Shown: one piece after another, positions 9,126 through 53,166 of the stretch | Numbering within the stretch: the first letter of the stretch is position 1 | How the letters are laid out: every line of letters starts with the position of its first letter | Made by a program: the position numbers and the translations under genes | From: Bacillus sp. F19 | GTDB lineage: Bacteria; Bacillota; Bacilli; Bacillales; Bacillaceae | DNA: 64,000 nucleotides | Reading direction: 5' to 3' | NCBI GenBank assembly: GCA_023823795.1 | Contig: CP085710.1 | Coordinates: 2,816,001-2,880,000 of the forward strand | The notes under the pieces: generated by a model | What the model was told of the DNA's origin: nothing | What the model saw: the letters and a program-made list of their open reading frames with translations, nothing else | Databases searched by the model: none

Positions 9126-9397
9126 CCTATAATTCCCCCATTCAGAATCAGCTGCTTCTATGTAACTATAAAATTATAGAATGATTTGAAATTTATGTAA
9201 ATCACTTTTTTAGCTGCACTTGCATAAAATCGAATTTGTTTTTAACAGGTAAGATTACGGGATAAATACTTGTTAGCCTTTATTTCTCCAACCAATAACA
9301 CCTATGTAAAATCCTACTATAGAAGAATGTGATAGAGGTTTAAAAATGGTAAAATTCACTATATGAATTTCAATTATGATTTTGGGGAGTGATAGAT

Positions 9398-29813: not shown

Positions 29814-30095
29814 TCAGGTAAAATCAAAATAGTTTCGCTTCAGGTGACGCTTCCATTTCATCAGTTCTTTGTAATCTATGCGGTTTGGCAGTTCTTTAAC
29901 GGCAATTAAAAGCAGCTGATTTTCGATTTCGTTAACGGTTTGTTCGCTTTGATAGCTGATACCGCAGTCCGGACAAGTAATACATGGTGTGTCTGAAATT
30001 TCGATGGCGCGCGAACCGTCAGGCAGCTCCCAGTGAACTAGATTGCTTGAGCTCTTTGCATTTTGCGATTCACACCAGTCGCAGCGTTCATTCAT
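29814..30095 (-). CDS. yokU: YokU family zinc-ribbon protein
   Basis: 93 residues with two CxxC pairs (CDWC at 5-8 and CPDC near 39-42) that likely bind zinc. YokU family; function unknown but conserved beside kamA. Its start overlaps the 3' end of kamA by 8 bp, so the two are translationally coupled. Confidence 0.88.
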   Translation of the reverse strand: MNERCDWCESQNAKSSSNLVHWELPDGSRAIEISDTPCITCPDCGISYQSEQTVNEIENQLLLIAVKELPNRIDYKELMKWKRHLKRNYFDFT

Positions 30096-31500
30096 TTTCT
30101 GCCGCCTTCTTTTCTTCGGATTTTAATAGCTGCGCACGGTACTTTTTATCCTTTAACTCATCACGCTTTTCCCGTTTATCCTTTAATGTGGAATGAGCAG
30201 GGTTTGTTTCAAACGTTTTTCTCCTATTTATTCTTCCGATGCCTTCAGGGATTAAGTTAAATTGAGCGTCTTCGTACAAACCAGCAATTCCTGATAGAGA
30301 TTTTTTTGATGCAGAGTCTGGATAGACTTCATTAAAGTAATCATCTGCAAGCCCAGGCGTATAGTTTTCCGGCTCCGGATAGGTTGTGATGACTCCTTCA
30401 AAGTTACGGAGCACAACTTTATCCGGGCTTTGAGAAATTAAATAGTTAGGCTGAAGGGCAATTTTCCCGCCGCCTCCCGGAGCATCGACGACAAAAGTTG
30501 GAACCGAATAGCCGCTTGTATGTCCGCGGAGTCCCTCAATTATCTCAAGTCCTTTTGAAACTGGCGCACGGAAATGCCCGATTCCTTCTGACAAATCACA
30601 TTGATAAATGTAATAAGGCCGCACTCTTATTTTGACAAGATCATGCATCAGTTTTTTCATAATTTGCACACTGTCATTAATTCCCGCAAGAATAACGGCC
30701 TGATTTCCGACTGGCACGCCGGAGTTCACAAGCATTTCACATGCCTTCTTAGATTCTTCAGTAATTTCAATGGAAGTATTGAAATGTGTATTCAGCCAGA
30801 CCGGATGATATTTTTTCAAGATGCTGCAGAGATTTTCTGTGATGCGCTGAGGAAATACTACAGGCGCGCGTGTACCGATTCTGATGATTTCAACATGATC
30901 AATCGCTCGGAGATTTTTCAAAATATATTCAAGAATTGTGTCATTAATCAGCAATCCGTCTCCCCCTGAAATCAGCACATCCCGGACTTCTGGCGTTTGA
31001 GCGATGTAGTTAATCGCATCATCAAGCTGCTTTTTAGGCACACCCATGCCAATTTGGCCTGAGAAACGTCTTCTCGTGCAATATCTGCAGTACATCGAGC
31101 ATTGATTTGTCACTAGAAATAAGACGCGATCGGGATAGCGGTGTGTCAGGCCAGGTACAGGTGAATCTTCATCTTCGTGAAGCGGATCTTCAAGGTCATA
31201 TTTTGTTTTATAAAGCTCCTGTGATATCGGAACCGACTGCATGCGGATCGGACATCTCGGATCATCTTCGTTCATTAGCCATGCATAGTAGGGAGTAATA
31301 TTTAAGGGGATGGTTTTCGTTGATATTTTAACCCCTTCTTCTTCATCAGGAGTCAGATTAATTACTTTTTTTAGGTCATCCAGTGTTCGGATGGTATTTG
31401 TAAGCTGCCAGAGCCAGTCATTCCACTGTTCATCTGTGACATCTTTCCAGAGTTCGATGTCTTTCCAGTCGCGCTTCGGCTTGTATAGATCGTATTTCAT
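30088..31500 (-). CDS. kamA: Lysine 2,3-aminomutase
   Basis: 470 residues. Converts L-lysine to L-beta-lysine using [4Fe-4S], S-adenosylmethionine and PLP. The radical-SAM cluster motif is C134-SMY-C138-RY-C141. The PLP-binding end shows DAPGGGGKIALQPNY. The first 26 codons of the open frame upstream overlap the promoter, so ATG 31500 is used. Preceded at 31537-31553 by a -24/-12 sigma-54 promoter and by a sigma-54 activator gene. The product beta-lysine can be acetylated by AblB (compatible solute) or fed to the yodQ-T steps. Confidence 0.93.
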   Translation of the reverse strand: MKYDLYKPKRDWKDIELWKDVTDEQWNDWLWQLTNTIRTLDDLKKVINLTPDEEEGVKISTKTIPLNITPYYAWLMNEDDPRCPIRMQSVPISQELYKTKYDLEDPLHEDEDSPVPGLTHRYPDRVLFLVTNQCSMYCRYCTRRRFSGQIGMGVPKKQLDDAINYIAQTPEVRDVLISGGDGLLINDTILEYILKNLRAIDHVEIIRIGTRAPVVFPQRITENLCSILKKYHPVWLNTHFNTSIEITEESKKACEMLVNSGVPVGNQAVILAGINDSVQIMKKLMHDLVKIRVRPYYIYQCDLSEGIGHFRAPVSKGLEIIEGLRGHTSGYSVPTFVVDAPGGGGKIALQPNYLISQSPDKVVLRNFEGVITTYPEPENYTPGLADDYFNEVYPDSASKKSLSGIAGLYEDAQFNLIPEGIGRINRRKTFETNPAHSTLKDKREKRDELKDKKYRAQLLKSEEKKAAENE

Positions 31501-31536
31501 GGAAGTTCCCCCAATTCGGTCTTTACCATTAATACA

Positions 31537-31553
31537 TGCAAAAACCATGCCAA
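31537..31553 (-). promoter_or_regulatory. Sigma-54 (-24/-12) promoter of kamA
   Basis: Minus-strand TTGGCATGGTTTTTGCA: the invariant GG and GC are separated by 10 nt, and it matches the YTGGCAYRNNNYTGCW consensus. It lies 37 bp before the kamA start and just after a sigma-54 activator gene. Confidence 0.85.
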
Positions 31554-31554
31554 C

Positions 31555-31578
31555 GTGACTGTAAGCTGTTACAATCAC
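31555..31578. promoter_or_regulatory. Inverted repeat abutting the kamA promoter
   Basis: Plus-strand GTGACTGTAA-GCTG-TTACAATCAC: two 10-bp arms with one mismatch. It ends 2 bp from the -24 box and follows the activator's stop. No T run follows, so it is more likely a protein site than a terminator. Confidence 0.5.
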
Positions 31579-31587
31579 ATCCGCTAT

Positions 31588-32997
31588 TTATGCTTTCAAT
31601 TTTGGTGCCGAAAATTGGTCAGGAAAATATTTTTTCACTTTGTATTGAAGGGTTTGTCTCGGAATTTGGAGCAGCTTTGCTGTTTTCAAAATATTTCCTT
31701 CGCTTTGAACAAGTGCTTGTTGGATGATCTCTTTTTCCATCATTGACATTTTTTCATGAAGAGAATGCGCTTCCTTTGCCGTCTTTTCCTCTTTCTGTAA
31801 ATATGGCGGTAAATGACCGGTTATAATTCTATTCCCATCACACATATTCATGGCAAACTCAATGCAATGCTTCAACTCTCTTACATTCCCAGGCCAGTGA
31901 TGGTGCTTTAATAGGGCTTGTGCTTCATCTGATAATCCGGCAACACGCTTTTGAAATTCATGATTGTACTTTTTAATAAAATAAGAAATTAGTAAGGGGA
32001 GGTCCAATGGCCGTTCTCTGAGCGGGGGAAGATTGATTCCGAAGACGTTTAAGCGAAAATAAAGATCTTCCCGCATTTTCCCCTCCGAAAGACATTGTTC
32101 AGGGTTGATGTTCATAGCGGCAATCACTTTGACATCGACTGTGATTGAATGACTGCTTCCGATTCTCCTGATTGTGCCATCGTCAATGACTCTAAGCAGC
32201 TTTGCCTGCAGGTTCAGAGGCATCGATTGTAGTTCATCCAGAAAAAGCGTTCCGCCGTGAGACAGTTCAAATAAACCTGGCCTGTCTACCGCGCCTGTAT
32301 AGCTTCCTTTTGCTGTCCCAAATAATAAACTTTCAAGCAAGGCTTCAGGAAGCGCCGCACAGTTTTGTGCTATAAAAGGAGCATCTCTTCGCTGTGATTC
32401 GTTATGAATGGCCTGTACAATTAATTCTTTTCCAGTACCTGTTTCCCCATAAACGAGAACATTTGATGAGGTTTTTGCCGCTTTTTTCACAAGCGTTTTA
32501 ATCATAAGAAGGTTCTTGCTTGCAGTAATGATGTCATCAAGAACATACTTTGTGCCGTTGGATCCCTCTGCTTTTGGTGGGGAATGCACTTGTTGCTGCA
32601 GGTCAGCCAGCCGCTCTGTCAACCGCTTGATCGCTGAAAAATCCTTTGCAATTTCAACAGCGCCGATTACTTTATCCTCAGATAAAATCGGCAGGCTCGT
32701 GTTCACTGTCTCAATTTTTTCGCCCTTAACATTTATGTACGTTTGGGAATGGTGATAAATCGGTTTTTTCGTTTTAATGGCTTTTAAGAGTGTGCTCGTT
32801 TCTTCAGAAAGGGACGGAAAAACATCAAATAAATGCTTGCCCACAACCTCATCGACTTTCAAACCATCATGATAGGCTGCAATCTCGTTGTAAAAAACTG
32901 TGATTCCTTTCTCGTCAACCGCATGAATCCCCTCATCAATCGTTTCTAAAATATGATGAATGATTCGATCCCGATTTTGATTTGTCAAAGGTTCCAC
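31588..32997 (-). CDS. Sigma-54-dependent PAS activator (RocR-like)
   Basis: 469 residues: N-terminal PAS sensor (about 15-125, DEGIHAVDEKGITVFYNE), AAA+ domain with Walker A GETGTGK (184-190) and the sigma-54 contact loop GSYTGA (231-236, GAFTGA variant), and a Fis-type helix-turn-helix at the C-terminus (GNILKTAKLLQIPRQTLQYK). Resembles RocR/BkdR-class activators. Placed directly upstream of kamA, which carries the -24/-12 promoter, so it very likely activates kamA in response to lysine or a product; ligand inferred. Confidence 0.88.
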   Translation of the reverse strand: MEPLTNQNRDRIIHHILETIDEGIHAVDEKGITVFYNEIAAYHDGLKVDEVVGKHLFDVFPSLSEETSTLLKAIKTKKPIYHHSQTYINVKGEKIETVNTSLPILSEDKVIGAVEIAKDFSAIKRLTERLADLQQQVHSPPKAEGSNGTKYVLDDIITASKNLLMIKTLVKKAAKTSSNVLVYGETGTGKELIVQAIHNESQRRDAPFIAQNCAALPEALLESLLFGTAKGSYTGAVDRPGLFELSHGGTLFLDELQSMPLNLQAKLLRVIDDGTIRRIGSSHSITVDVKVIAAMNINPEQCLSEGKMREDLYFRLNVFGINLPPLRERPLDLPLLISYFIKKYNHEFQKRVAGLSDEAQALLKHHHWPGNVRELKHCIEFAMNMCDGNRIITGHLPPYLQKEEKTAKEAHSLHEKMSMMEKEIIQQALVQSEGNILKTAKLLQIPRQTLQYKVKKYFPDQFSAPKLKA

Positions 32998-33013: not shown

Positions 33014-33050
33014 TGCCGGATTTTCGGCATATACTGCTCAATTTTCGGCA
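33014..33050. promoter_or_regulatory. Pair of 16-bp dyads, candidate activator sites
   Basis: TGCCG-GATTTT-CGGCA (33014-33029) and TGCTC-AATTTT-CGGCA (33035-33050), spaced 21 bp (two helical turns). The second overlaps the ablB stop. They lie 17 bp upstream of the activator start and about 1.5 kb from the kamA promoter. Confidence 0.5.
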
Positions 33051-33892
33051 GACAGATCTTTGCACCATACATTCATGTTTTCAAGATCTGTACTAATGAT
33101 ACAATTATTTGTAAGTCTGCCGGTATATTCATAATCCAGCTGATGCAAAACGGCGTTCATGCCGAAAGAATCCGCCCTTGCAATCGAATAAGCACAAAAA
33201 ATACCGTTTTCACAAAGCTTTTGCTCAAGTAATAAAATCAGGCTTCTCATTAATTTATGCTTTCTGACTTCGGACAGCGTTGCACAGTCTGTTATTTCAG
33301 CATTGTGGTATGCTGAATTGATTTCAGCAGAAGCAGCACTTACGATGTTGTCTCCTTTTTCAGCAAGATAATAGATGGTGCCATCCCTCATCGTTTTTTG
33401 TATATAATCACTTGAATGGAGGGGTGTTGGATACACTTCGAATACTGCTCTGTATAACTCTGCAAGCTTCTTTGCATCATGTTCTTCAGCTGCACGAAAT
33501 ATAAATGCTGCTGACTGCACTTGTCCTGTCTTCTTTTTTTCATATATGGATGTGATGATGCTGTCCTGCTTTGTCCAGCTGTCAGTTTTTCTTCTTTCTT
33601 CACTTAAATATTTCGTGAAAAAATAGGCATCATCACTGTGAAAATAATTTTTAATGATGGCTTCAAGCTGAAATTGCTGCATCAGTAAAAAAGGGATGTC
33701 ACAGGCTTTTGCCTTGACAATCACTTTTGTGAAGCTATAATCTGAAGCTAATTTGAATGCATCTGTGAGCAAGGACTCTGTATTTCCGCGATAGTCATCG
33801 ATTCGGAGCCTTTTATTAAAATAATCGAGTACTGCTTCAGCACGATAATTCTTTTTAGCTAACGTTTTTGTTTCGAAGTACGTTTTTTTCAA
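33038..33892 (-). CDS. ablB: Beta-lysine N-acetyltransferase
   Basis: 284 residues from TTG 33892, chosen because AGGGGG lies 7 bp upstream; the longer frame runs into the terminator hairpin. Two-part GNAT protein with FIFRAAEEHDAKKLAELYRA and ATLSEVRKHKLMRSLILLLE in the catalytic half. Equals B. subtilis YodP; acetylates beta-lysine to N-epsilon-acetyl-beta-lysine, an osmolyte in archaea and some Bacillus. It lies between the aldehyde dehydrogenase and the sigma-54 activator. Confidence 0.85.
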   Translation of the reverse strand: MKKTYFETKTLAKKNYRAEAVLDYFNKRLRIDDYRGNTESLLTDAFKLASDYSFTKVIVKAKACDIPFLLMQQFQLEAIIKNYFHSDDAYFFTKYLSEERRKTDSWTKQDSIITSIYEKKKTGQVQSAAFIFRAAEEHDAKKLAELYRAVFEVYPTPLHSSDYIQKTMRDGTIYYLAEKGDNIVSAASAEINSAYHNAEITDCATLSEVRKHKLMRSLILLLEQKLCENGIFCAYSIARADSFGMNAVLHQLDYEYTGRLTNNCIISTDLENMNVWCKDLSAEN

Positions 33893-33923
33893 GACCAGTC
33901 CCCCTAAAATAAAAATTACCCTG

Positions 33924-33965: not shown

Positions 33966-35396
33966 TTAGAACTTGGCATGATTAAACGAGATCAGCTTCA
34001 ACTCGGTCAGTTCTTCAATGGCATATTTAATGCCTTCTCTGCCGAATCCGCTGTCCTTCACACCGCCATATGGCATATGATCGACACGGAAGGTTGGAAT
34101 GTCATTGATCATGACACCGCCGACATGAAGGGCTTTTGCTGCTTGAAAGGCCAGGTCGACTTTATTTGTAAATATGCCCGCTTGAAGACCATATCTCGAG
34201 TTGTTCACTTCTTCAATTGCTTCATCAAATGTTTTGAATGAGTTGATGATGACAATTGGAGCAAATGCTTCCTCACAGGAGAGATTGACTTCAGACGAGA
34301 CATTCAGCAAGATAGTCGGCTGAACAATCTGATGATCCTCTGATTTGCCGCCGCATTCGATTAGAGCTCCTGCATTCTCAGCTTCTTCAATCCAGGAAAT
34401 GGCGCGATCCACGTCTTCACTTGAGATTAATGAGGAGACATCTGTCTCTTCAGCAAGGGGATCGCCGAGTTTAAGTTTTTTCGTCTCTTTAACAGCCTTT
34501 GCAACGAACTCATCAAATACGTTTTCGTGTACATAAATTCGCTGCACGGATATGCAAACCTGGCCCGCATACGCGAAAGCTCCTGTTATACATCTTGGAG
34601 CTACCTTTGAAACATCAGCATCTTCCGCGACAATGACAGCTGAATTTGATCCTAATTCAAGCAGCGTCTTTCTCAGGCCGGCTTCTTTTTTCAGTTTTTT
34701 CCCGACGTCTGGACTTCCTGTAAACGTAAGGGCCTTTACGCGTTCATCTGATGTAAAATGCTGGCCGATTTCACTGCCTTTTCCCGTTACAATGTTCAGT
34801 GCGCCTTCAGGCAGACCCGCTTCATGAAAAAGCTCTCCGATGAAGTAGGAGCTTAAAGGTGTTTGCGTCGCAGGTTTTAATACAACTGTATTGCCTGCGG
34901 CAAGAGCAGGCCCAAGCTTGTGCGCAACGAGATTCATCGGGAAATTAAAAGGCGTGATCGCTCCAATAACTCCGATTGGCTCGCGCACTGTGTAGGCTGT
35001 CCGGTTTTCACCGCCTGGCGCTGCATCCATTGAAATCGTCTCACCGTTCAGCCTTCTCGCTTCCTCAGCGGCAAATGTGTATGTCATAACCGTGCGGTCC
35101 ACTTCTGCTCTCGCAGTTTTAATTGGTTTAGCGGCTTCTTTAGCAATAATCACTGCCGCTTCTTCTTTTCGTTCAGCAAGAAGATGGGCTGTTTTCAATA
35201 AAATATCTGCACGCTTATATGCAGGCAAAGCGTTCATCTTACTGATCGCTTCACTTGCTGCGTCAACTGCTGCTTTTACTTGATTCTGATCTGCAATGGC
35301 TACCTCTGCCAGCAATTCATCCGTGTAAGGAGACTTTAATTCCTGATACTTGCTTGCTTCCATATTCTGTCCATTGATCCATAAATGCTGCTTCAT
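33966..35396 (-). CDS. NAD(P)-dependent aldehyde dehydrogenase
   Basis: 476 residues, full-length ALDH. Catalytic Cys281 in AYAGQVCISVQRIYV, general base Glu247 in LLELGSNSAV, and the PFNFPMN motif near 150. Class resembles lactaldehyde/succinate-semialdehyde dehydrogenases. It sits inside the beta-lysine cluster between yodQ and ablB, where I recall no such gene in B. subtilis, so it probably oxidises an aldehyde made in this pathway; inference. Confidence 0.85.
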   Translation of the reverse strand: MKQHLWINGQNMEASKYQELKSPYTDELLAEVAIADQNQVKAAVDAASEAISKMNALPAYKRADILLKTAHLLAERKEEAAVIIAKEAAKPIKTARAEVDRTVMTYTFAAEEARRLNGETISMDAAPGGENRTAYTVREPIGVIGAITPFNFPMNLVAHKLGPALAAGNTVVLKPATQTPLSSYFIGELFHEAGLPEGALNIVTGKGSEIGQHFTSDERVKALTFTGSPDVGKKLKKEAGLRKTLLELGSNSAVIVAEDADVSKVAPRCITGAFAYAGQVCISVQRIYVHENVFDEFVAKAVKETKKLKLGDPLAEETDVSSLISSEDVDRAISWIEEAENAGALIECGGKSEDHQIVQPTILLNVSSEVNLSCEEAFAPIVIINSFKTFDEAIEEVNNSRYGLQAGIFTNKVDLAFQAAKALHVGGVMINDIPTFRVDHMPYGGVKDSGFGREGIKYAIEELTELKLISFNHAKF

Positions 35397-35432: not shown

Positions 35433-36734
35433 TTATTTACCCTTTCCATCAATCTGTAAAAACATCTGCTCTGATACACCGCACCAGTGCATTAAGAAAA
35501 CAGCCAGAATTTTTGTACAGTCGATGATTTTATCAATTTCAATAAATTCATTCGGAAAGTGAGCCACCTCTGTTTCGCCGGGGCCAAATACAATGGAAGG
35601 AATATCGCCTGCATGAGATATAAGGCCTGCATCTGTTCCCCAAGGAGATGCTTCAATGATCGGTTCTTTATCCATGATCTCTTTATAAGAATTTATCAAA
35701 GTCGCGGTTAGAGGATGTTCGCTTCCGATTTCATTTGGAAGCCACCTTGCCCCAAACCACTCCAGTTCAACCGGATGTTCATTGAACCATTCATCCTTTG
35801 AAGAAAGGCCAGAAATCCAATTTTGAAATTCTCTCTGCACCTCTTCTATCGTTTCATTCGGTGCGATCCCGCACCTTCCTTCTAAGGTGACAAGATCTGC
35901 CACAGAGGATGGCCACGTGCCTCCTTCTATTTTTCCAATATTAATAGGAACTGGAATCGGAACCTTATTGTAAAGAGCATCGTTTATTTTTTCGTTTCGC
36001 TTTTTTTCAAGCTCCAGGATATGCTTGACAACCAGCATGCTTTTTTCAATGGCGCTGATTCCCTCATATCTCGTTCCCCCATGTGCAGAACGCCCCTTTA
36101 TTTTCAGCCTGAACCACATAGATCCCTGCTGTTTTTGAAAAATTTTCATTTTAGTAGGCTCCGGAATAATAGCTGCATCTGCCTTGTATCCGCGTAAAAT
36201 GGCAGCAAGAGTTCCCGCTCCGCCGCTTTCTTCTTCAATGACACTTTGAAAAATGACGTCTCCCTTTAAGGAAATACCTGATGCTTTAATAGCTTCCATT
36301 GCCATTAAAAGACAGACATTCCCGCCTTTCATATCCGTCGATCCGCGTCCATAAAGACGGTTTTCGGTTACCACTGCCTGATAAGGGTCCACATCCCATT
36401 GCTCTAAGTCGCCTTCCGGCACGACATCGATGTGTCCATTTAAAATAACGGATTTCCCGTCTCCTTTTCCTTTTAAAACTCCGACAATGTTCGGGCTGTC
36501 TTTAAAAGATGTTCTCGTTGCCACAAAATGCGGGTGCTGTTTAAGGAGTTTGCCGCCAGGCTCCCACAGATCTATATCCAGGCTAAGCTGACGGCATTTT
36601 TCCAGCACGACCGCTTGGGCTGACGCCTCATTTCCCTGAACACTTCTCTGTTCGACCATCTTTTTAAGTAATTTAATTGACCGGTTTCGATTTTCTTCTA
36701 TCCATGTGCAAACTTGCTCTTGCAAGTTATTCAT
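35433..36734 (-). CDS. yodQ: M20 family deacylase YodQ
   Basis: 433 residues, ArgE/DapE-type zinc peptidase fold. Metal ligands and catalytic acids appear in NGHIDVVPEG, GRGSTDMKGGN and VIEEESGGAG; the dimerisation lid has GRSAHGGTRYEG. Probably removes an acyl group from an amino-acid intermediate. It follows yodR by 12 bp. Called by similarity and position to B. subtilis yodQ. Confidence 0.87.
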   Translation of the reverse strand: MNNLQEQVCTWIEENRNRSIKLLKKMVEQRSVQGNEASAQAVVLEKCRQLSLDIDLWEPGGKLLKQHPHFVATRTSFKDSPNIVGVLKGKGDGKSVILNGHIDVVPEGDLEQWDVDPYQAVVTENRLYGRGSTDMKGGNVCLLMAMEAIKASGISLKGDVIFQSVIEEESGGAGTLAAILRGYKADAAIIPEPTKMKIFQKQQGSMWFRLKIKGRSAHGGTRYEGISAIEKSMLVVKHILELEKKRNEKINDALYNKVPIPVPINIGKIEGGTWPSSVADLVTLEGRCGIAPNETIEEVQREFQNWISGLSSKDEWFNEHPVELEWFGARWLPNEIGSEHPLTATLINSYKEIMDKEPIIEASPWGTDAGLISHAGDIPSIVFGPGETEVAHFPNEFIEIDKIIDCTKILAVFLMHWCGVSEQMFLQIDGKGK

Positions 36735-36746
36735 CGAATCACTCCT

Positions 36747-37397
36747 TCAAAGATTCATGCCGATTTCAAGCTTTGCTCCTGTGCATTTCATCACATCCTG
36801 GACTGTGAATGGAACCATGATCTCTTTTAATATAAGTCCTGTCTCATGCACTTCAATTACCGCCATATCCGTAATAATTAAATCGACACATTGTTTGGAT
36901 GTAAGCGGCAGGGTGCAGCTTGTGAGAATTTTCGGATCGCCGTTTTTATTGACATGATTCATGACGACAATGACTTTTTTTGCTTTTCCGGCAAGTTCCA
37001 TTGCTCCGCCCATTCCAGGCACACGCTTACCAGGTACGATCCAATTGGCGAGGTCTCCTTTTTCGCTTACCTGGAGAGAACCTAGAATCGTCAAATCAAT
37101 GCACCCCCTTCGAATCATGCCAAACGCTGTGGTTGTGTCAAAATAAGAGGCTCCTTTTTCCAGGGTTACAGGATAGCCTGCAGCATTGCACAGTGTCTCC
37201 TCTTCTTCTCCTTGCAAAGGTGTTGATCCAATGCCGAGGATGCCGTTTTCAGCCTGAATCATCACTTGAGGTTTGTTTTTCAGATAATTCGGCACGAGAG
37301 AGGGAATCCCTATGCCAAGATTGACGATCATGCCGTTATCAATTTCCTGTGCTGCACGTTTCGCAATATTTTCTCTTACTTCGGTTCCCATACCCAC
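36747..37397 (-). CDS. yodR: 3-oxoacid CoA-transferase subunit B (YodR)
   Basis: 216 residues. The catalytic Glu of class I CoA-transferases is in QAENGILGIG, and the GIGIPSL nucleotide-like loop is at about 28-34. It forms a heterodimer with YodS; the two genes overlap by 22 bp. Moves CoA between a 3-oxoacid and a short acyl-CoA, consistent with the end of a lysine-fermentation-like route. Confidence 0.9.
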   Translation of the reverse strand: MGMGTEVRENIAKRAAQEIDNGMIVNLGIGIPSLVPNYLKNKPQVMIQAENGILGIGSTPLQGEEEETLCNAAGYPVTLEKGASYFDTTTAFGMIRRGCIDLTILGSLQVSEKGDLANWIVPGKRVPGMGGAMELAGKAKKVIVVMNHVNKNGDPKILTSCTLPLTSKQCVDLIITDMAVIEVHETGLILKEIMVPFTVQDVMKCTGAKLEIGMNL

Positions 37398-38077
37398 TTC
37401 CAGTTCACCCCTTCACTTTGTACGATGGCTTGAACAAATACACCCGGGGTGATGATGGCTTCGGGATCAAGCTCGCCTAAAGTTACGATTTCATCGACTT
37501 CCGCAATGGTATAATCTCCTGCCATGGCCATAAGCGGGTTCATATTCCGTGCACTTTTTTTGTAGATGATGTTTCCGAATTCATCCGCTGTCTTTCCGCA
37601 AATGATGGCCACATCAGCAGTTAAGGCTGTTTCAATAAAATAGGTGCGCCCTTCCACTTGCACAAGCTCTTTTCCTTTTTCTGCAATCTCACTTCCCATG
37701 CCTACATCTGACAAAATGCCTCCAAGACCCATTCCGCCGGCACGGATTCGCTCGCCAAGAGTTCCCTGCGGCGAAAATTCCACTTCGAGCTTGCCTTCTG
37801 ACATCAAGTTTCCGGCGATTGGATTTGAGCCAATATGCGAGGCAATTACTTTTCGGACACGCCCTGCCGAGATCAGTTTCCCTATTCCGATATGCGGAAA
37901 ACCAGTGTCATTGCAGATAATTTCGAGTTCCCGGACCTCTTTTTCCAAAATCGCGTCAATCAAAGACGGAGGGGTGCCAACACCGCCAAATCCACCTGCC
38001 ATCAGCGTGCAGCCGTCATTGATTTTGCCTATAATCTCATCAATTAGTCTGATTTTCTGAAAAGAGTTAGCAATCAT
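37376..38077 (-). CDS. yodS: 3-oxoacid CoA-transferase subunit A (YodS)
   Basis: 233 residues. GCTLMAGGFGGVGTPPSLID (about 19-38) is the CoA-binding glycine motif of subunit A, and ELEVEFSPQGTLGERIRAGG precedes GMGLGG. Partner of YodR. Starts 14 bp after yodT. Confidence 0.9.
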   Translation of the reverse strand: MIANSFQKIRLIDEIIGKINDGCTLMAGGFGGVGTPPSLIDAILEKEVRELEIICNDTGFPHIGIGKLISAGRVRKVIASHIGSNPIAGNLMSEGKLEVEFSPQGTLGERIRAGGMGLGGILSDVGMGSEIAEKGKELVQVEGRTYFIETALTADVAIICGKTADEFGNIIYKKSARNMNPLMAMAGDYTIAEVDEIVTLGELDPEAIITPGVFVQAIVQSEGVNWKWVWEPK

Positions 38078-38091
38078 ACAGATTCTCCTTT

Positions 38092-39435
38092 TTATGACAT
38101 TGGCAGCACTTCGGCTTCTATTTCTGCTGTCGTTTTTGAAAATAGCTGGACAAGTTCGTTTAGCTCTTCATCATTAATGGTCAGCGGCGGGGCAATTAAT
38201 ATGGCGTCGCCGTCGCCGCCTTCAATTCCAGCAGCAGACGGATAGACAAGCAGCCCGTTCTGATTTGCTTTCTTAATGATGCGGCTCGTAAGATTATAAG
38301 ATTTCGGAAAAGGCTGTTTGGTCGTCTGGTTTATAACAAATTCAATTCCTATTAATAATCCTTTTCCCCTGACATCTCCAATGATTTCTGTTTTTTCCTG
38401 CAATTTTTGCAGGTGTTTGATCAGTATCTTTCCTTTTTCAGAAGCTGCATCGTTCAATTGATTTTTTTCAATATAATGCAAGACTGCGAGACTGACAGCT
38501 GCGGATTGAGGATTCGCGCTGTACGTATGCCCGCTCATGATTAATTTTGATCCTTGCTGAATTGGCCGCATCACCCTGTCACTGATTAAAGTAGCAGCAA
38601 CTGGAGCATAACCGGCACTTAATCCTTTCCCGAGTGCAACGATGTCAGGCAATGCTCCCCAATGCTCCATCGCAAGAGTTTTTCCTGTTCTTCCAATGCC
38701 TGTCATGACTTCATCCGCTATGAACAGAATGTCATTTCGATCACAAATATCGCGGATTTTTTCGTAATATCCTTCTGGAGGTGTAATTGCTGCTCCCGCT
38801 GCACCGACAACCGGCTCTGCAACAAAAGCAGCAACGTGATCAGCACCGACTCTTCTTATTGCCGTTTCCAATTCTTCTGTACATTTCGCCTTGCAAGAGG
38901 AGGGTTTTAATCCATATGGACAACGATAACAGTACGCAGGAGATACCACCGGATTTGCTTCAAGCAGCGGCTGAAACCGGAAACGGCGCTCTGGATAGCC
39001 TGATAAAGAAAGCGCGCCAATTGTAATCCCGTGGTAGCTCATCCACCTGGAAATAATTTTTGTTTTTTTAGGCATGTTTTTTTCCTGAAAATACTGTATT
39101 GCTGTCTTCATGGCCGTTTCAATGGCTTCAGATCCGCTGTTGACCAGAAAGGTCCAGTTAAGATCACCCGGCGTCATCTCTGCAAGCTTCTTTGACAGGC
39201 CCTCTGCTGCATAGCTAGAGAATTGGGACCGATAGACAAACGATACTTCTCGCGCCTGCTCCACCATAGCCTCCACTATTTCACTGACACCATGTCCGAT
39301 TGAACAAGTTACAGCTCCAGATGATCCATCCAAATATTTCTTGCCAGAAGTATCGTATAAATAAACACCTTGTCCATGGCTGACCTTTTTATAGCTTTCA
39401 TCAAGCATCGGTTTAATTAAGTACTCCCTCTCCAT
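38092..39435 (-). CDS. yodT: Class III PLP aminotransferase YodT
   Basis: 447 residues from ATG 39435, behind GAGGTGGG. Class III aminotransferase: DEVMTGIGRTG binds the PLP ring, and the Schiff-base lysine is in VALGKGLSAGYAPV. SGSEAIETAMKTA and the SYHGITIGALSLSG block are also standard. An omega-amino acid (such as a beta-lysine derivative) is a plausible donor. First gene of the yodTSRQ-aldh run. Confidence 0.9.
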   Translation of the reverse strand: MEREYLIKPMLDESYKKVSHGQGVYLYDTSGKKYLDGSSGAVTCSIGHGVSEIVEAMVEQAREVSFVYRSQFSSYAAEGLSKKLAEMTPGDLNWTFLVNSGSEAIETAMKTAIQYFQEKNMPKKTKIISRWMSYHGITIGALSLSGYPERRFRFQPLLEANPVVSPAYCYRCPYGLKPSSCKAKCTEELETAIRRVGADHVAAFVAEPVVGAAGAAITPPEGYYEKIRDICDRNDILFIADEVMTGIGRTGKTLAMEHWGALPDIVALGKGLSAGYAPVAATLISDRVMRPIQQGSKLIMSGHTYSANPQSAAVSLAVLHYIEKNQLNDAASEKGKILIKHLQKLQEKTEIIGDVRGKGLLIGIEFVINQTTKQPFPKSYNLTSRIIKKANQNGLLVYPSAAGIEGGDGDAILIAPPLTINDEELNELVQLFSKTTAEIEAEVLPMS

Positions 39436-39479
39436 CCGGAAACCCACCTCACTTGCATTCTGAATATCATACTTCTTAC

Positions 39480-39509
39480 ATTCTATGTGAAGGATAAACA
39501 GGTTATTTC
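39480..39509 (-). promoter_or_regulatory. Possible SigE promoter of yodT
   Basis: Minus-strand CATAGAAT (-10-like, 39480-39487) and GAAATAAC (-35-like, 39502-39509), separated by 14 bp, the SigE spacing. The B. subtilis yodT operon is known from memory as SigE-dependent. Confidence 0.4.
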
Positions 39510-47751: not shown

Positions 47752-49176
47752 TCAACTTATCCCATACCCCTTGCATTTATCATAAAAACTTGTCTTCCCA
47801 ATTCCAAGCAGTTTGGCTGCCTCCATTTTGTTCCCTTTCGCTTCCGTAAGAGCATGGAATATTGCTTCTTTCTCAGCTTCCGCCACGATGTCTTTAAGCG
47901 GTTTGACAGGTCCATAAAGTTTGCTGCCGTTCATAGGACTATGCGGCAGATGTGCAGTGTATGCTTGGCTATGGCTCTTCCCTTCCTGCTGAAGATACAG
48001 AGGCAGATGTTCAGGATAAATCATTTGGCCGTCCAGTACGTTAACTGCACGTTCAAGTACGTTCTCAAGCTCACGAATGTTTCCGGGCCAAGAGTGTCTT
48101 TCCAGGTCAAGCTTCACCTCTTCAGAGAGATCAAGACCATACCTGTGAAATTTAGTCCCCAGCTTTTTTAATAGAATTCTTGAAATTGGGACTATGTCTT
48201 CCTTACGATCCTTAAGTGAGGGAATATCGATTTTGATGACATTAAGGCGATAATAAAGATCCTCCCTAAACTCACCGTCCAAAACCATTTTTTCCAGGTT
48301 GCGATGGGTAGCGGCAATCACTCGTACATCGATTTGAATAGGAGCGCGTCCGCCGATTCGCTCAATTTCTTTTTCCTGAAGCACACGAAGCAATTTGCTT
48401 TGCATCTGAAGAGGGAGGTCGCCAATCTCATCAAGAAAAATTGTTCCTCCGTGTGCCAGCTCAAACTTTCCCTTTTTTCCGCCCTTTTTTGCACCGGTAA
48501 AGGAACCTTCTTCATACCCGAAAATTTCCGATTCAAATAAATGCTCGGGAATCGAAGCGCAATTAACCCTCATGAAAGGGGCAAAACGTCTTCCGCTAGT
48601 CTGATGAATGGCATGGGCAAACAGCTCTTTTCCAGTTCCAGATGCCCCAAGCAGGAGAACGGCCGACTGACTGTCCGAAACCCGCTCTGCCAGCTTCTTG
48701 GCTTCCATGAATTTGGGACTGCTTCCAACCAGATCCCCAAAATGATATTTGCTGAAAAGTTCTTTCTCAAATTTCGTTTTATAATAGTTTAATTCTTCCA
48801 TGATCGGCTGGATTTTCTTAGAATAGTCCAGCCATTCCTGAGCATTGCGGAACATCACTGTTCCTACAGCACCCACCAGCTGTCCTTTCACATAGAGGGG
48901 ATACCGGTTTGCAATCATTTCGCTTCCGTTAATGGGATGAATGGACGCCACTTCCGCCTGACCGGTTTTAGCTACAATTTGCATTCTCGTATTTTCAATA
49001 ACCTCCTGAACCGGTTTCCCAATTGATTCTTCTGCGGTTACATTCAGGAATTCACAATAGGCCGAATTGAGATAAACAACAATTCCTTCATGATCCACTA
49101 CTACCATGCATTCTGCCGCTAAATTGACTACTTCTTCAATCCAATCATAGGGAAGCTTTTCCATTAATCCTTTCAT
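47752..49176 (-). CDS. Sigma-54-dependent PAS activator of the ketone-body operon
   Basis: 474 residues from ATG 49176 behind GAGGTGG. PAS domain (about 12-110, AAECMVVVDHEGIVVYLNSA), AAA+ domain with Walker A GASGTGKE (177-184, Ala where Glu is usual) and the sigma-54 contact loop GSFTGA (224-229), and a Fis-type helix-turn-helix (GNKMEAAKLLGIGKTSFYDK). It lies just downstream of the permease-sco-hbd operon, which has a -24/-12 promoter and TTCCG dyads, so it is very likely its activator. Confidence 0.88.
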   Translation of the reverse strand: MKGLMEKLPYDWIEEVVNLAAECMVVVDHEGIVVYLNSAYCEFLNVTAEESIGKPVQEVIENTRMQIVAKTGQAEVASIHPINGSEMIANRYPLYVKGQLVGAVGTVMFRNAQEWLDYSKKIQPIMEELNYYKTKFEKELFSKYHFGDLVGSSPKFMEAKKLAERVSDSQSAVLLLGASGTGKELFAHAIHQTSGRRFAPFMRVNCASIPEHLFESEIFGYEEGSFTGAKKGGKKGKFELAHGGTIFLDEIGDLPLQMQSKLLRVLQEKEIERIGGRAPIQIDVRVIAATHRNLEKMVLDGEFREDLYYRLNVIKIDIPSLKDRKEDIVPISRILLKKLGTKFHRYGLDLSEEVKLDLERHSWPGNIRELENVLERAVNVLDGQMIYPEHLPLYLQQEGKSHSQAYTAHLPHSPMNGSKLYGPVKPLKDIVAEAEKEAIFHALTEAKGNKMEAAKLLGIGKTSFYDKCKGYGIS

Positions 49177-49327
49177 TTTCTCCACCTCTTTCCTTACTGT
49201 CTGAAATAAACCGTTTACATTTGTATGATTATCTTACACAGACCTATTAATAAAAATCAATATATTGGGAGATTCAGATCAATAAATCACTTTGGTAAAG
49301 ACAGCCATTTACTTTATCATTGCAAAA

Positions 49328-49352
49328 ATAAAGGACAGCATGGGCTGTCCCT
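49328..49352 (-). terminator. Terminator of the hbd end of the sco operon
   Basis: Minus-strand stem GGACAGC/GCTGTCC followed by TTTATTTTTGC. Separates the operon from the activator gene. Confidence 0.8.
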
Positions 49353-49368
49353 TTTCTGAATATAAGTA

Positions 49369-50154
49369 TTATTGAACCGTATACCCACCATCAAGAATAG
49401 CTGCCTGACCGGTAATTCCTTTTGCTTTATCACTTGCCAGAAAGACTGCATAATCGGCAATTTCCTGAACTGAGAGCAATCTTTTCTGCGGAACGAGAGG
49501 ATAAATCACTTGTTCTAGAACACGTTCAAGCTCTACGTTTCGCGTTTTCGCAAGGTCAGCAAGCTGGTTGCGAACCAAAGGGGTATCAACGTAGCCCGGA
49601 CAAAGTGCGTTAACGGTGATTCCATGTTCCGCCCCTTCAAGCGCAGCAACCTTAGTCAGTCCGATGACACCGTGTTTGGCGCTGTTGTAAGCTGCTTTTC
49701 CTGCAAAACCGATAACTCCATTAATAGATGCCATATTAATAATCCGGCCAAAATTTTGTTTTTTCATGATTGGAAAAACGTGTTTTGTAGCTACAAACGG
49801 CGCTGTCAGCATGACTTTGATCAGGAATTCAAACCGGTCAGTCGGGAATTCTTCGATTGGAGAAACATGCTGCAGTCCAGCATTGTTAACAAGAATGTCC
49901 AAGCGGCCGTACAGTTTTTGAACGGTTTCAATCGTTTGAATGATCTGATCTTCCTTTGTTACATCGCAAGCAGCAGCAATGGATTCAAAACCTTCTTCCT
50001 TCAATTTTTCAGCTGCTGCTTCGGCTGCTTCCAGATTCACATCGGAAATGACTACTGCCGCTCCTTCTTTTGCAAATTCCTTAGCAACTTCAAATCCGAT
50101 GCCGCTCGCGGCACCTGTCACAAGCGCTGCCTTTTCCTTAAGTAATCGATTCAT
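49369..50154 (-). CDS. 3-hydroxybutyrate dehydrogenase (SDR)
   Basis: 261 residues from the second ATG (50154), which has better spacing from AAAGGG than the first. Short-chain dehydrogenase: TGAASGIG cofactor loop (about 13-20), NNAG (about 89-92), catalytic Ser/Tyr/Lys in INMASINGVIGF and AAYNSAKHG. Closest in type to BdhA/HbdH, oxidising D-3-hydroxybutyrate to acetoacetate. Last gene of the ketone-body operon; 27 bp after scoB. Confidence 0.88.
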   Translation of the reverse strand: MNRLLKEKAALVTGAASGIGFEVAKEFAKEGAAVVISDVNLEAAEAAAEKLKEEGFESIAAACDVTKEDQIIQTIETVQKLYGRLDILVNNAGLQHVSPIEEFPTDRFEFLIKVMLTAPFVATKHVFPIMKKQNFGRIINMASINGVIGFAGKAAYNSAKHGVIGLTKVAALEGAEHGITVNALCPGYVDTPLVRNQLADLAKTRNVELERVLEQVIYPLVPQKRLLSVQEIADYAVFLASDKAKGITGQAAILDGGYTVQ

Positions 50155-50180
50155 CGCCATTTCCCTTTCTATTGCTCGCC

Positions 50181-50834
50181 TTAATGGGCGGTCAGCAGTG
50201 ATTGACTTATTGTAAATGAGGCTTCTGTTTTCTCTTTTACTTCCTCAATGGTCACCCCGTCCTGAAGTTCAACGAGCTCCATCATGCCATCTGCAAAATC
50301 AAATACAGCAAGCTCTGTAATTAGGCGGTTGACAACCTGTTTCCCTGTCAAAGGAAGAGTGCATTCTTTTTTAACCTTGGATTCACCATATTTATTGACA
50401 TGTTCCATAATAACAATTATCCGTTTGGCGCCATTAACAAGATCCATGGCACCGCCCATCCCCTTAACCATTTTTCCAGGGATCATCCAATTCGCAAGGT
50501 CTCCCTGTTCAGAAACCTCCATGCCTCCTAGAATAGCAAGATCAATATGTCCTCCGCGTATCATGGCGAAAGATTCTGCACTGTCAAAATAAGATGCGCC
50601 AGGTACACTTGTTACCGTTTCTTTTCCTGCATTGATCAGGTCTGGATCTTCCGTTCCTGCAATCGGATACGGTCCGATTCCAAGCAGGCCATTCTCCGAT
50701 TGCAAAAGCACATTATAATCATCTGGAATTTCATTTGCTACAAGAGTAGGCATCCCGATTCCAAGATTTACGTTCATGCCGTCTTTTATTTCTTTAACTG
50801 CTCGCTTCACCATTTTATGTCTGCTGTCACTCAT
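50181..50834 (-). CDS. scoB: Succinyl-CoA:3-ketoacid CoA-transferase subunit B
   Basis: 217 residues. Class I CoA-transferase beta subunit; catalytic Glu in LLQSENGLLGIG. AAGGAGGC precedes the start. Activates acetoacetate to acetoacetyl-CoA with scoA. A paralogue, yodR, lies at 36747, so the window has two such systems. 15 bp after scoA. Confidence 0.92.
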   Translation of the reverse strand: MSDSRHKMVKRAVKEIKDGMNVNLGIGMPTLVANEIPDDYNVLLQSENGLLGIGPYPIAGTEDPDLINAGKETVTSVPGASYFDSAESFAMIRGGHIDLAILGGMEVSEQGDLANWMIPGKMVKGMGGAMDLVNGAKRIIVIMEHVNKYGESKVKKECTLPLTGKQVVNRLITELAVFDFADGMMELVELQDGVTIEEVKEKTEASFTISQSLLTAH

Positions 50835-50849
50835 GTTTTTGCCTCCTTT

Positions 50850-51551
50850 TTATGCCTGACGAACCGTAAGGCGTTCGATTCGTTTTTCATAGTTCTCACC
50901 AAGCAATACATGCTGAACATAAATGCCAGGTGTATGAATTTCGTCTGGATTCAGCTCTCCGGTTTCAACAATTTCTTCGACCTCTGCTATTGTAATTTTC
51001 CCGGCCATCGCAGCCACTGGATTAAAATTTCGGGAAGTTTTCCTGAAAACCAAGTTACCAAGCGGGTCCGCTTTCCATGCTTTAACTAGGGCAAAGTCTC
51101 CAACGATTCCTCTTTCAAGGATATACGTCCGGCCATCGAAATCTTTGTGCTCCTTGCCTTCAGCCACCTTCGTTCCAACTCCGGTTGCTGTATAAAAGCC
51201 AGGAATTCCAGCGCCTCCAGCCCGCATTCTCTCAGCTAAAGTTCCTTGAGGGATCAGCTCTACTTCCAATTCACCGCTTAAATACTGACGTTCAAAAATT
51301 TTGTTTTCTCCTACATAAGAAGACATCATTTTTTTGATCTGTTTGTTTGCAAGCAGCAAGCCAAGGCCCCAATCGTCAACTCCGCAGTTATTGCTTACAA
51401 CAGTAAGATCTTTGACACCTTTATCTCTTAAAGCAAGAATCGTTTTTTCAGGTATGCCGCAGAGGCCGAAGCCTCCAACGACCAATGTTGCACCGTCTTC
51501 CACCGTATCAATTGCTTGTTTAAATGAGTCTAGAACTTTTCCCTTTGCCAT
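50850..51551 (-). CDS. scoA: Succinyl-CoA:3-ketoacid CoA-transferase subunit A
   Basis: 233 residues. [20 protein letters not shown] (about 20-39) is the glycine-rich CoA motif of subunit A, with [17 protein letters not shown] downstream. Works with ScoB. GAGGAAAC before the start. It follows the permease by 30 bp. Confidence 0.92.
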
Positions 51552-51581
51552 CTAAGTTTCCTCTCTTTCTGTGATGATTGT

Positions 51582-53024
51582 TTAAACTAGGCCGAATAGG
51601 CTGTAAATCGCGATAATGACAAATACGGCAACTGTCTTAATAATCGTAATGGCAAAAATATCACGGTAAGATTGACGGTGAGTAAGACCTGTAACCGCAA
51701 GAAGCGTAATAACCGCTCCATTGTGAGGCAGAGTATCCATACCGCCTGATGCCATAGAAATAACCCTATGCATAACCTCCGGAGGAATATTGAACTTTTC
51801 AATTGCCTCCAAATACTTATCAGACATTGCGCTTAGCGCAATTCCCATCCCTCCGGATGCGGAGCCTGTGATACCTGCAAGTGTGGTTGTCGTCACAGCT
51901 CCGTTTACAAGCGGATCCGTAAATGTTGAGGAAATCCCATTGCTCACCGTTTTAAATCCAGGAAGTGCAGCGATGACTCCGCCAAATCCATACTCAGCTC
52001 CTGTATTCATGGCGGCAAGCAGTGCACCGCTAATCCCAGCATTCAAACCGTCTTTAATGTTAGCGGTTACAGCTTTCCAGTCAAAAGCAATTGTCGTTAT
52101 GATTCCTATTAATAGCGCAAGTTCAACAGACCATATTGCAACAACAGATGGAAGCTCGATTTTACCAAACGCTTCAAGTCCGATCGCTGAGAAATCAAAT
52201 CCGTTTGGATACCATTTCGGAAAAGAAACGGTGAAGAATTTGTTCATGACACCAACCAAAATAAGTGGCACGAAGGCTAGAATCTGACGGGCAACACTAA
52301 GTTCCGTTCCTGCAGAAACAGCAGCCTCTTCTTTTTCACGAGCAAGCTCAGGGTCTAGTCCTGCAGCAGTCTCTGAATGAAATCCTGCATACCCTTCACC
52401 TGCTTTTTCCGCTTTTTTGCGTCGTGATTCCAAATACCACATTCCAAGTGACAAGACAAAAATCGCACCTATAATCCCAAGAACAGGAGCTGCATAAATA
52501 TCAGTTTTGAAGAAGGTTGTCGGGATGACGTTTTGAATTTGCGGCGTACCCGGAAGTGCGTCCATCGTAAAAGTAAAAGCTCCAAGAGCAATTGTTCCTG
52601 GAATCAGACGTTTTGGAATGTCTGCCTCAATGAACAGATTTTTAGCAAATGGATAGACAGCGAACACCACAACAAACAAACTGACACCGCTGTATGTCAG
52701 GATGGCACCCATCAGAACAATGGCAAGAATCGCTCTCCTTGCTCCTACAAGCTTAACAATCGTTTTGGCAATGGATTCAGCAAGACCGGACATTTCCACG
52801 ACCTTCCCAAAAATAGCTCCAAGCAAGAATACCGGAAAATAAAGTTTAATGAATCCGACCATCTTCTCCATAAACACGTTGGAGAAAAACGGCAGTACAT
52901 AACTAGGATCTGTCAGCAATACTGCAAACAGAGCACAGATCGGAGCAAACAAAATAACTGAAAATCCCCGATAAGCAACAAACATCAGTAAACTTAGTGA
53001 TAATAAAATAATAATGATTTCCAC
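51582..53024 (-). CDS. GntP family permease (probable 3-hydroxybutyrate/acetoacetate uptake)
   Basis: 480 residues, twelve or more helices. The family N-terminus VEIIIILLSLSLLMFVAYRG is reached from GTG 53024, which has AAGGGGG 6 bp upstream; a longer frame from ATG 53060 is possible. Related to gluconate/hydroxybutyrate permeases (YxjC-type). First gene of an operon with scoA, scoB and 3-hydroxybutyrate dehydrogenase, which indicates ketone-body import. Preceded by a cre-like site, a sigma-54 promoter and dyads. Confidence 0.87.
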   Translation of the reverse strand: MEIIIILLSLSLLMFVAYRGFSVILFAPICALFAVLLTDPSYVLPFFSNVFMEKMVGFIKLYFPVFLLGAIFGKVVEMSGLAESIAKTIVKLVGARRAILAIVLMGAILTYSGVSLFVVVFAVYPFAKNLFIEADIPKRLIPGTIALGAFTFTMDALPGTPQIQNVIPTTFFKTDIYAAPVLGIIGAIFVLSLGMWYLESRRKKAEKAGEGYAGFHSETAAGLDPELAREKEEAAVSAGTELSVARQILAFVPLILVGVMNKFFTVSFPKWYPNGFDFSAIGLEAFGKIELPSVVAIWSVELALLIGIITTIAFDWKAVTANIKDGLNAGISGALLAAMNTGAEYGFGGVIAALPGFKTVSNGISSTFTDPLVNGAVTTTTLAGITGSASGGMGIALSAMSDKYLEAIEKFNIPPEVMHRVISMASGGMDTLPHNGAVITLLAVTGLTHRQSYRDIFAITIIKTVAVFVIIAIYSLFGLV

Positions 53025-53076
53025 AAACATCCCCCTTTTTGGCCTCTTTGATTCTTGCATTGAGCAGACCTTTACC

Positions 53077-53090
53077 GGTAAGCGCTTACA
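53077..53090. promoter_or_regulatory. cre-like site in the sco operon leader
   Basis: On the minus strand TGTAAGCGCTTACC matches TGWAANCGNTNWCA at all but the last position. It lies between the sigma-54 promoter and the permease start, a roadblock position for CcpA. Confidence 0.7.
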
Positions 53091-53149
53091 TCGTGTGCAA
53101 TCAGACCTGTTTTCGCTCTCCTTCTAAATGACCAGCTCGTTGTTATACT

Positions 53150-53166
53150 TGCAAGAAGCGTGCCAA
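53150..53166 (-). promoter_or_regulatory. Sigma-54 (-24/-12) promoter of the sco operon
   Basis: Minus-strand TTGGCACGCTTCTTGCA: perfect to the YTGGCACGNNNNTTGCW consensus with 10 nt between GG and GC. About 125 bp upstream of the permease start. Confidence 0.9.

Follow-up and report, generated by a model that had tools for sequence, protein, structure and literature searches.

The kamA locus of Bacillus sp. F19: a conserved σ54-type promoter, an upstream KamR-type activator gene and a candidate enhancer

In Bacillus sp. F19, kamA and yokU lie behind a predicted σ54-type promoter, and an activator that we assign to KamR is encoded upstream. This arrangement of the kam locus is real, ordinary in kind and well conserved. 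We studied it in a 64,000-nucleotide stretch of the chromosome (referred to as the window) and in kamA loci of other Bacillales genera. Judged from sequence, it is quite probable that we are dealing with a KamR-type kam locus for lysine catabolism in which a pair of boxes would act as enhancer through a DNA loop across kamR, and in which yodT would be preceded by a SigE promoter.

Results

Genes and promoter of the kam locus

The features of the locus are compiled in Table 1. The kamA product reached 634.8 bits with TIGR03820 (cut-off 525.4). A mechanical list of open reading frames starts kamA on the far side of the promoter, at GTG 31578; a G-rich ribosome site precedes the ATG at 31500. The mechanical frame of yodP extends to 33979. 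Among the matches listed, the closest named kamA is 99% identical and stems from a record labelled Peribacillus frigoritolerans F-D2; other Peribacillus kamA genes in these matches are 83–85% identical. The aldehyde dehydrogenase gene occurs in some relatives and is missing in others, and it is thus an optional member of the locus; every NCBIfam match of its product was below cut-off among the best 25 of 44 models. No RNA family was detected in the window at gathering scores.

Table 1. Annotated and predicted features of the kam locus (window positions)
Feature	Position	Strand	Basis or remark
yokU, overlapping kamA end	29814..30095	minus	TIGR03829, 134.2 bits (cut-off 90.85)
kamA, lysine 2,3-aminomutase, 470 aa, ATG start	30088..31500	minus	TIGR03820, LAM_C, Radical_SAM
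Predicted σ54 (-24/-12) promoter of kamA, TTGGCATGGTTTTTGCA	31537..31553	minus	Pattern, matrix, conservation
kamR, σ54 activator	31588..32997	minus	PAS, AAA+, HTH_8
Weaker box-like sequence, last kamR codons	31606..31621	minus	2 mismatches
Predicted KamR box 2, TGCCGAAAATCCGGCA	33014..33029	minus	One mismatch; 21 bp from box 1
Predicted KamR box 1, TGCCGAAAATTGAGCA, overlapping yodP stop codon	33035..33050	minus	One mismatch
yodP, putative β-lysine N-acetyltransferase	33038..33895	minus	TIGR03827, 311.5 bits (cut-off 205.1)
Aldehyde dehydrogenase, between yodQ and yodP	33966..35396	minus	PF00171
yodQ, ArgE/DapE-type deacylase	35433..36734	minus	TIGR01910, 391.1 bits (cut-off 217.6)
yodR, 3-oxoacid CoA-transferase subunit B	36747..37397	minus	TIGR02428, over cut-off
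yodS, 3-oxoacid CoA-transferase subunit A	37376..38077	minus	TIGR02429, over cut-off
yodT, class III aminotransferase	38092..39447	minus	NF005375, over cut-off
Candidate SigE promoter of yodT, AAATAAC, 14 bp, CATAGAAT	39480..39508	minus	Score 13.3 of 16; weak

A σ54 site before kamA had been proposed in the first-pass annotation, and its sequence and coordinates agree with ours. The site is separated from the kamA ATG by 36 nt. Exact matches to TTGGCAYGNNNNTTGCW occur twice in the window (31537–31553 and 53150–53166, both on the minus strand) compared with 0.01 expected, and none of 100 shuffles contained two; a looser scan allowing 2 mismatches was uninformative (26 matches versus 19.5 expected). 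With a matrix built from 11 B. thuringiensis sites (PMC4428206, Table 2; kamA's own site excluded) the kamA site scored 24.7 of a maximum of 27.5. The window holds three matrix matches of at least 14 (24.8, 24.7 and 14.4), versus 0.43 per shuffled window. Since the -24 GG is located at 31551–31550 and the -12 GC at 31539–31538, a transcript start is expected near 31526, next to the position near 31525 predicted earlier. Loss of the GG/GC pair in close relatives had been named as an outcome that would speak against the promoter; both elements are kept in the F19 genome and in 7 of 7 relatives of the same genus. The promoter block is also intact in L019 and L020, two loci in which the interval separating it from kamR is longer by about 590 bp and about 460 bp, respectively. 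By eye, repeated blocks have been inserted in these extended gaps.

Two candidate features around the promoter were discarded. The inverted repeat TGTAACAGCTTACA (31560–31573), just 5' of the -24 element, was considered as an activator site and is not conserved in same-genus relatives. We also discarded a short leader frame in the interval from promoter to kamA, since its ATG precedes the expected transcript start.

A second σ54 unit is present at 47752–53166 on the minus strand, where the site TTGGCACGCTTCTTGCA (53150–53166) precedes genes for 3-oxoacid CoA-transferase subunits, a 3-hydroxybutyrate dehydrogenase, a σ54 activator (47752–49185) and a 492-aa protein with no Pfam or NCBIfam match. 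By its gene content, this unit looks like an operon for 3-hydroxybutyrate or acetoacetate utilisation.

The activator gene that the first-pass annotation had called RocR-like and placed immediately upstream of kamA corresponds to an open reading frame with PAS, σ54-type AAA+ and HTH_8 domains that is co-directional with kamA. From the spacing of the ribosome site (by eye), TTG 32985 is a likelier start than the listed GTG. The best NCBIfam model for the activator was PrdR, below its cut-off. Its loop reads GSYTGA rather than GAFTGA, and in 123 aligned relatives (not deduplicated) GSYTGA was found 97 times, GSFTGA 22 times and GSFTGS three times, with one unread. On the basis of domain content and gene order, the predicted protein matches the described KamR in role and position. 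For SigL, the genome contains one PF04552 match (207.3 bits).

σ54 site and activator gene mostly co-occur

Among 80 named kamA loci, 77 carry a σ54 site scoring at least 14 in the 120 nt upstream of kamA, and the three loci without it also have no kamR beside kamA. Within 3 kb of the 77 sites, a script found kamR in 73 cases. In the remaining four, kamR is located further upstream (L056), is represented by an N-terminal piece only (L107) or was not found (L046, L084). In L107 the kamR piece covers positions 9381–9725 and the -24 GG (site at 9948–9964) reads GT; the compared locus L108 has a longer kamR match and the site TTGGCATGGCTCTTGCA. The sequence of L107 thus points to an apparent joint decay of activator and promoter.

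For a broader view, one kamA locus was taken from each of 49 other genera; 54 of 113 genera carry kamA, and the genus of F19 itself as well as g34, g68, g72 and g94 were left out. Site and upstream activator occurred together in 36 of the 49 loci, one locus (L145) combines an activator with a low-scoring site (10.8), and 12 have neither, one of them being borderline (L165, with a site of 13.5 and a box). There was no locus with a site of at least 14 that lacked the activator. The Fisher p for this association is 1.4e-10 (shared ancestry ignored), and most of the sampled genera with kamA (37/49) show the activator-bearing arrangement. Seven further loci (L186–L192; six second copies and one more g15 genome) were kept out of this count. 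L188 has site and activator, four have neither, and the second copies L186 and L190 have a site with no activator found within 6 kb upstream.

A palindrome as the predicted KamR box

A de novo search for palindromic motifs in 77 upstream regions returned TGCCGAATATTCGGCA with a score of 616.6 at width 18, compared with a best score of 35.1 in the shuffled set. Weaker palindromes, some of which probably derive from the conserved end of kamR, were also obtained. From this search and the distribution of matches, the 16-bp palindrome TGCYGAAWWTTCRGCA is the probable KamR binding site. Allowing up to 2 mismatches, it occurs 46 times in 10.95 kb 5' of kamR and 42 times in 13.2 kb between kamR and kamA, as opposed to five times in 101 kb of kamR and 18 times in 1.36 Mb elsewhere in the loci; five control palindromes yielded 0 or 1 matches 5' of kamR and between kamR and kamA. 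Of the 37 activator-bearing loci in the 49-genus sample, 35 have a box in the 5 kb upstream of kamA, versus one of the 12 loci without activator.

The window contains two one-mismatch boxes (0.08 expected), both between yodP and kamR and about 1.47–1.49 kb upstream of the -24 element. Across loci, the spacing of such pairs is 20–22 bp in 55 of 56 cases, i.e., about two helical turns. The centre of the weaker box-like sequence at the kamR end is 62 bp upstream of the -24 element; it is also present in the same-genus loci L132, L134 and L135 and may reflect coding constraint only.

Genome-wide, 66 boxes with up to 2 mismatches were counted, compared with 22 matches to the reversed pattern. On its own the motif is therefore not specific, and it becomes informative only together with its position. 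A wider KamR regulon was considered and rejected. Among the matches listed, there are at least 8 one-mismatch boxes, six of them outside the kam locus; all six sit in open frames of more than 120 aa, and the 1.2 kb around them contain no σ54 site of at least 14 (best 12.5).

Box placement follows gene order

The position of boxes (up to 3 mismatches) relative to kamR was determined in 113 of 147 loci; left out were loci missing a kamR match of 250 bits, duplicates, and loci that were cut off or had an unreadable gene order. Where kamR adjoins kamA, boxes are located 5' of kamR in 97 of 103 loci, whereas this was the case in none of the ten loci where yodP separates kamR from kamA. All eight separated loci that reach kamA instead have boxes within 350 bp of kamA. 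A box near kamA was also found in 52 of 92 loci with the order yodP-kamR-kamA. T-runs were found after 33 of the 56 proximal boxes in adjacent loci, compared with 8 of 73 boxes 5' of kamR, and proximal boxes of this kind may be terminators. Our first reading, in which the box near kamA served as the enhancer, became doubtful because of these T-runs.

Six adjacent loci lack a 5' box. Of these, L047 carries two boxes next to the kamA promoter, neither with a T-run, and L022, L064 and L154 have one proximal box each (up to 2 mismatches, no T-run); by eye, further degenerate copies are present in L022 and L154, and the L064 box is possibly a terminator. Two proximal boxes without T-run occur in none of the 97 loci with 5' boxes, and one occurs in 18. 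In L083 and L105, which possess kamR and the site, no box was found at 3 mismatches 5' of kamR or near kamA. A σ54 site of at least 14 before kamR was detected in 5 of 73 loci (best 14.4).

A SigE-like element before yodT

A SigE-like element before yodT scored at least 13 in 57% of 70 loci versus 5% of shuffles, where the score is ad hoc and the shuffles keep base counts only. No σ54 site was found before yodT in any of 64 loci. With such an element at the head of the locus, KamR could also be made in the mother cell.

Additional kam genes in F19 and L056

The F19 chromosome contains a second kam cluster (L123, C1:539000-556000) with kamA and yokU-, yodP-, yodT-, yodS-, yodR- and yodQ-like genes, two tandem σ54 activator genes and one σ54 site, which precedes kamA. 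Its further products include a thiolase (over cut-off with TIGR01930) and a permease scoring 750.5 against a cut-off of 735 with PRK10836; this model is named 'amino acid permease', and we take it to be the lysine permease model. No KamR box was found in this cluster at 3 mismatches. A different palindrome, ACGCAAAATATCTTGCGT, was noticed upstream by eye. Next after yodQ, L056 has a gene for 4-aminobutyrate transaminase (over cut-off with TIGR00700). In the same locus, which comes from a metagenome-assembled genome labelled Alkalihalobacillus macyae, yodP has a σ54-like site of its own (TTGGCACAGTCCTTGCA, 8583–8599) besides that of kamA.

Discussion

Taking gene order, box positions and domain content together, we propose that KamR dimers bind the helically phased TGCYGAAWWTTCRGCA pair between yodP and kamR and contact SigL-RNA polymerase via a DNA loop that would span kamR itself. 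The signal sensed by the PAS domain is probably lysine or an early product. The enzymes of the locus would then convert lysine via β-lysine, N-acetyl-β-lysine, a 3-keto acid and 4-acetamidobutyrate to GABA, and the separate promoter before yodT, probably of the SigE type, would serve the mother cell. Chances seem about even for the more specific proposition that the phased pair beyond its own gene is the main enhancer of KamR, that the boxes take their place beside kamA where kamR is not adjacent, and that SigE-only control is a derived state. If this is true, the SigE-only state seen in B. subtilis would have arisen by joint loss of kamR, boxes and σ54 site, and the ancestral state of kamA control would be a lysine-catabolic switch. 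If the far pair is indeed the enhancer, the locus would be a naturally occurring example of an activator gene placed between enhancer and promoter, for which the natural rearrangements of the kamR/yodP order serve as controls. The predicted TGCYGAAWWTTCRGCA offers a concrete binding site for testing.

The pair is located roughly 20–80 bp before the kamR start, where an autoregulatory operator would be expected, and other activators repress their own genes. One may thus ask whether KamR uses the pair as an operator to control its own gene, for instance by autorepression, with kamA being activated from weaker sites near its promoter; the proximal boxes in 52 of 92 loci would suit this role, as would the single one without T-run in 18 of the 97 loci that have boxes 5' of kamR. 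Against this, boxes are present 5' of kamR in nearly all adjacent loci and in none of the separated ones, and four of the six adjacent loci lacking them carry proximal boxes, two in L047 and one each in L022, L064 and L154. This pattern of box placement favours an enhancer of kamA over an operator of kamR. Moreover, where kamR adjoins kamA a T-run follows more than half of the proximal boxes (33 of 56), and GabR, likewise a PAS-type activator, does not bind its own promoter in B. thuringiensis according to the available text of PMC4279683. We therefore regard the operator as an unlikely, though not far-fetched, explanation of the pair. It is clearly less probable that the σ54 site is little used and that kamA is transcribed mainly by read-through from the SigE promoter before yodT, as in B. 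subtilis. The element before yodT with its score of 13.3 of 16, its recurrence in other loci and the co-directional genes from yodT to kamA are compatible with read-through, as is a report that kamA expression in B. cereus ATCC 14579 was unaffected in an rpoN mutant (PMC4524646, in excerpt), an experiment in which inducing conditions may have been missing. Against it, nearly every sampled genus has either both site and activator or neither of them, and the promoter block persisted in L019 and L020 despite the extra sequence alongside.

With regard to function, lysine is degraded in Pseudomonas via β-lysine, acetyl-β-lysine, 3-keto-6-acetamidohexanoate and 4-acetamidobutyrate to GABA, whereas the ablAB genes of methanogens provide N-ε-acetyl-β-lysine as a salt-induced osmolyte. 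AblA- and AblB-type genes are found together in the F19 locus (TIGR03820 and TIGR03827, both over cut-off), and kamA might accordingly make β-lysine for that osmolyte. The ablAB osmolyte system is, however, a two-gene biosynthetic unit without degradative genes, which this locus is not: it also includes genes for an aminotransferase, a CoA-transferase, a deacylase and an aldehyde dehydrogenase. The thiolase and the permease of the second cluster and the GABA transaminase gene after yodQ in L056 also speak against osmolyte synthesis. The flanking genes and the second cluster suggest a better fit with lysine catabolism via β-lysine, and the locus thereby suggests a lysine-catabolic role for the KamA enzyme; salt-induced osmolyte synthesis appears improbable. 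As excerpted, one account names β-lysine as the initial metabolite when Bacillus degrades lysine, with reference to Zhang et al. (PMC6957869). In another, lysine could not serve B. thuringiensis HD73 as a nitrogen source, a result that argues against catabolism in this species and would be in line with an osmolyte, and loss of kamR slightly lowered sporulation (PMC4428206, in excerpt). The function of kamA in B. subtilis is called undetermined in the available part of PMC6522883. Our literature search on pathway intermediates did not find 3-keto-6-acetamidohexanoate, N6-acetyl-β-lysine or 4-acetamidobutyrate in the papers that it covered.

In B. subtilis, kamA is described as SigE-dependent and sporulation-specific (PMC6522883, PMC6957869, both in excerpt), in agreement with its assignment to a SigE sporulation operon in the first-pass annotation. 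That annotation had further suggested that kamA can be switched on in vegetative cells by a ligand such as lysine, or by salt. The σ54 promoter with its own activator makes expression outside the SigE programme plausible, the more so as the kamA promoter of B. thuringiensis is reported to depend on sigL and KamR from T0 (excerpted text of PMC4428206). Induction by salt is unsupported by anything found.

The closest known system is that of B. thuringiensis HD73, whose kamA has a -24/-12 promoter controlled early by sigL and KamR and later by SigK and GerE, as described in the consulted portion of PMC4428206. As in F19, a PAS-containing activator is encoded upstream of and co-directionally with kamA, and the kamA unit comprises a further small gene. 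The site listed for B. thuringiensis, TTGGCATAACTATTGCT, is placed at -38 from the start codon, compared with TTGGCATGGTTTTTGCA and 36 nt here; none of 397 genomes matched the B. thuringiensis kamA site. Unlike B. thuringiensis, F19 has an aldehyde dehydrogenase gene between yodQ and yodP and a second kam cluster. No KamR box was found in the available text of that account, and neither the predicted box nor its movable position was found in the literature covered, which did not extend to the primary KamR paper. GabR, which acts on gabT in B. thuringiensis, has the PAS-AAA+-HTH architecture of KamR and binds to a repeat region, as KamR is predicted to; its PAS domain represses until GABA is added (PMC4279683, in excerpt). 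The GabR binding region adjoins the gabT promoter, however, whereas the predicted main pair of KamR lies beyond the activator gene, at a distance of about 1.5 kb.

B. subtilis shares the enzyme with F19 and has its aminotransferase YodT under SigE control; in contrast to the situation here, the excerpted accounts of its kamA mention neither an activator nor a σ54 site (PMC6522883, PMC6957869). Neither lysine nor kamA is mentioned in a paper on the σ54 regulons of Clostridiales (PMC6615313). According to a 2025 survey, lysine 2,3-aminomutase (COG1509) is among the predominantly σ54-regulated genes of Bacilli; the available part of that survey names no activator or binding site for it (PMC12316311). 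Considering this survey and the B. thuringiensis system, the locus of F19 is a further member of a known system, and the KamR-σ54-kamA arrangement as such is not new. In the excerpt of PMC4428206 the KamR gene organisation is called unique to the B. cereus group, whereas we find it in 37 of 49 other genera. The KamR switch thus appears to extend well beyond that group, as the majority state among the sampled kamA-bearing genera of Bacillales.
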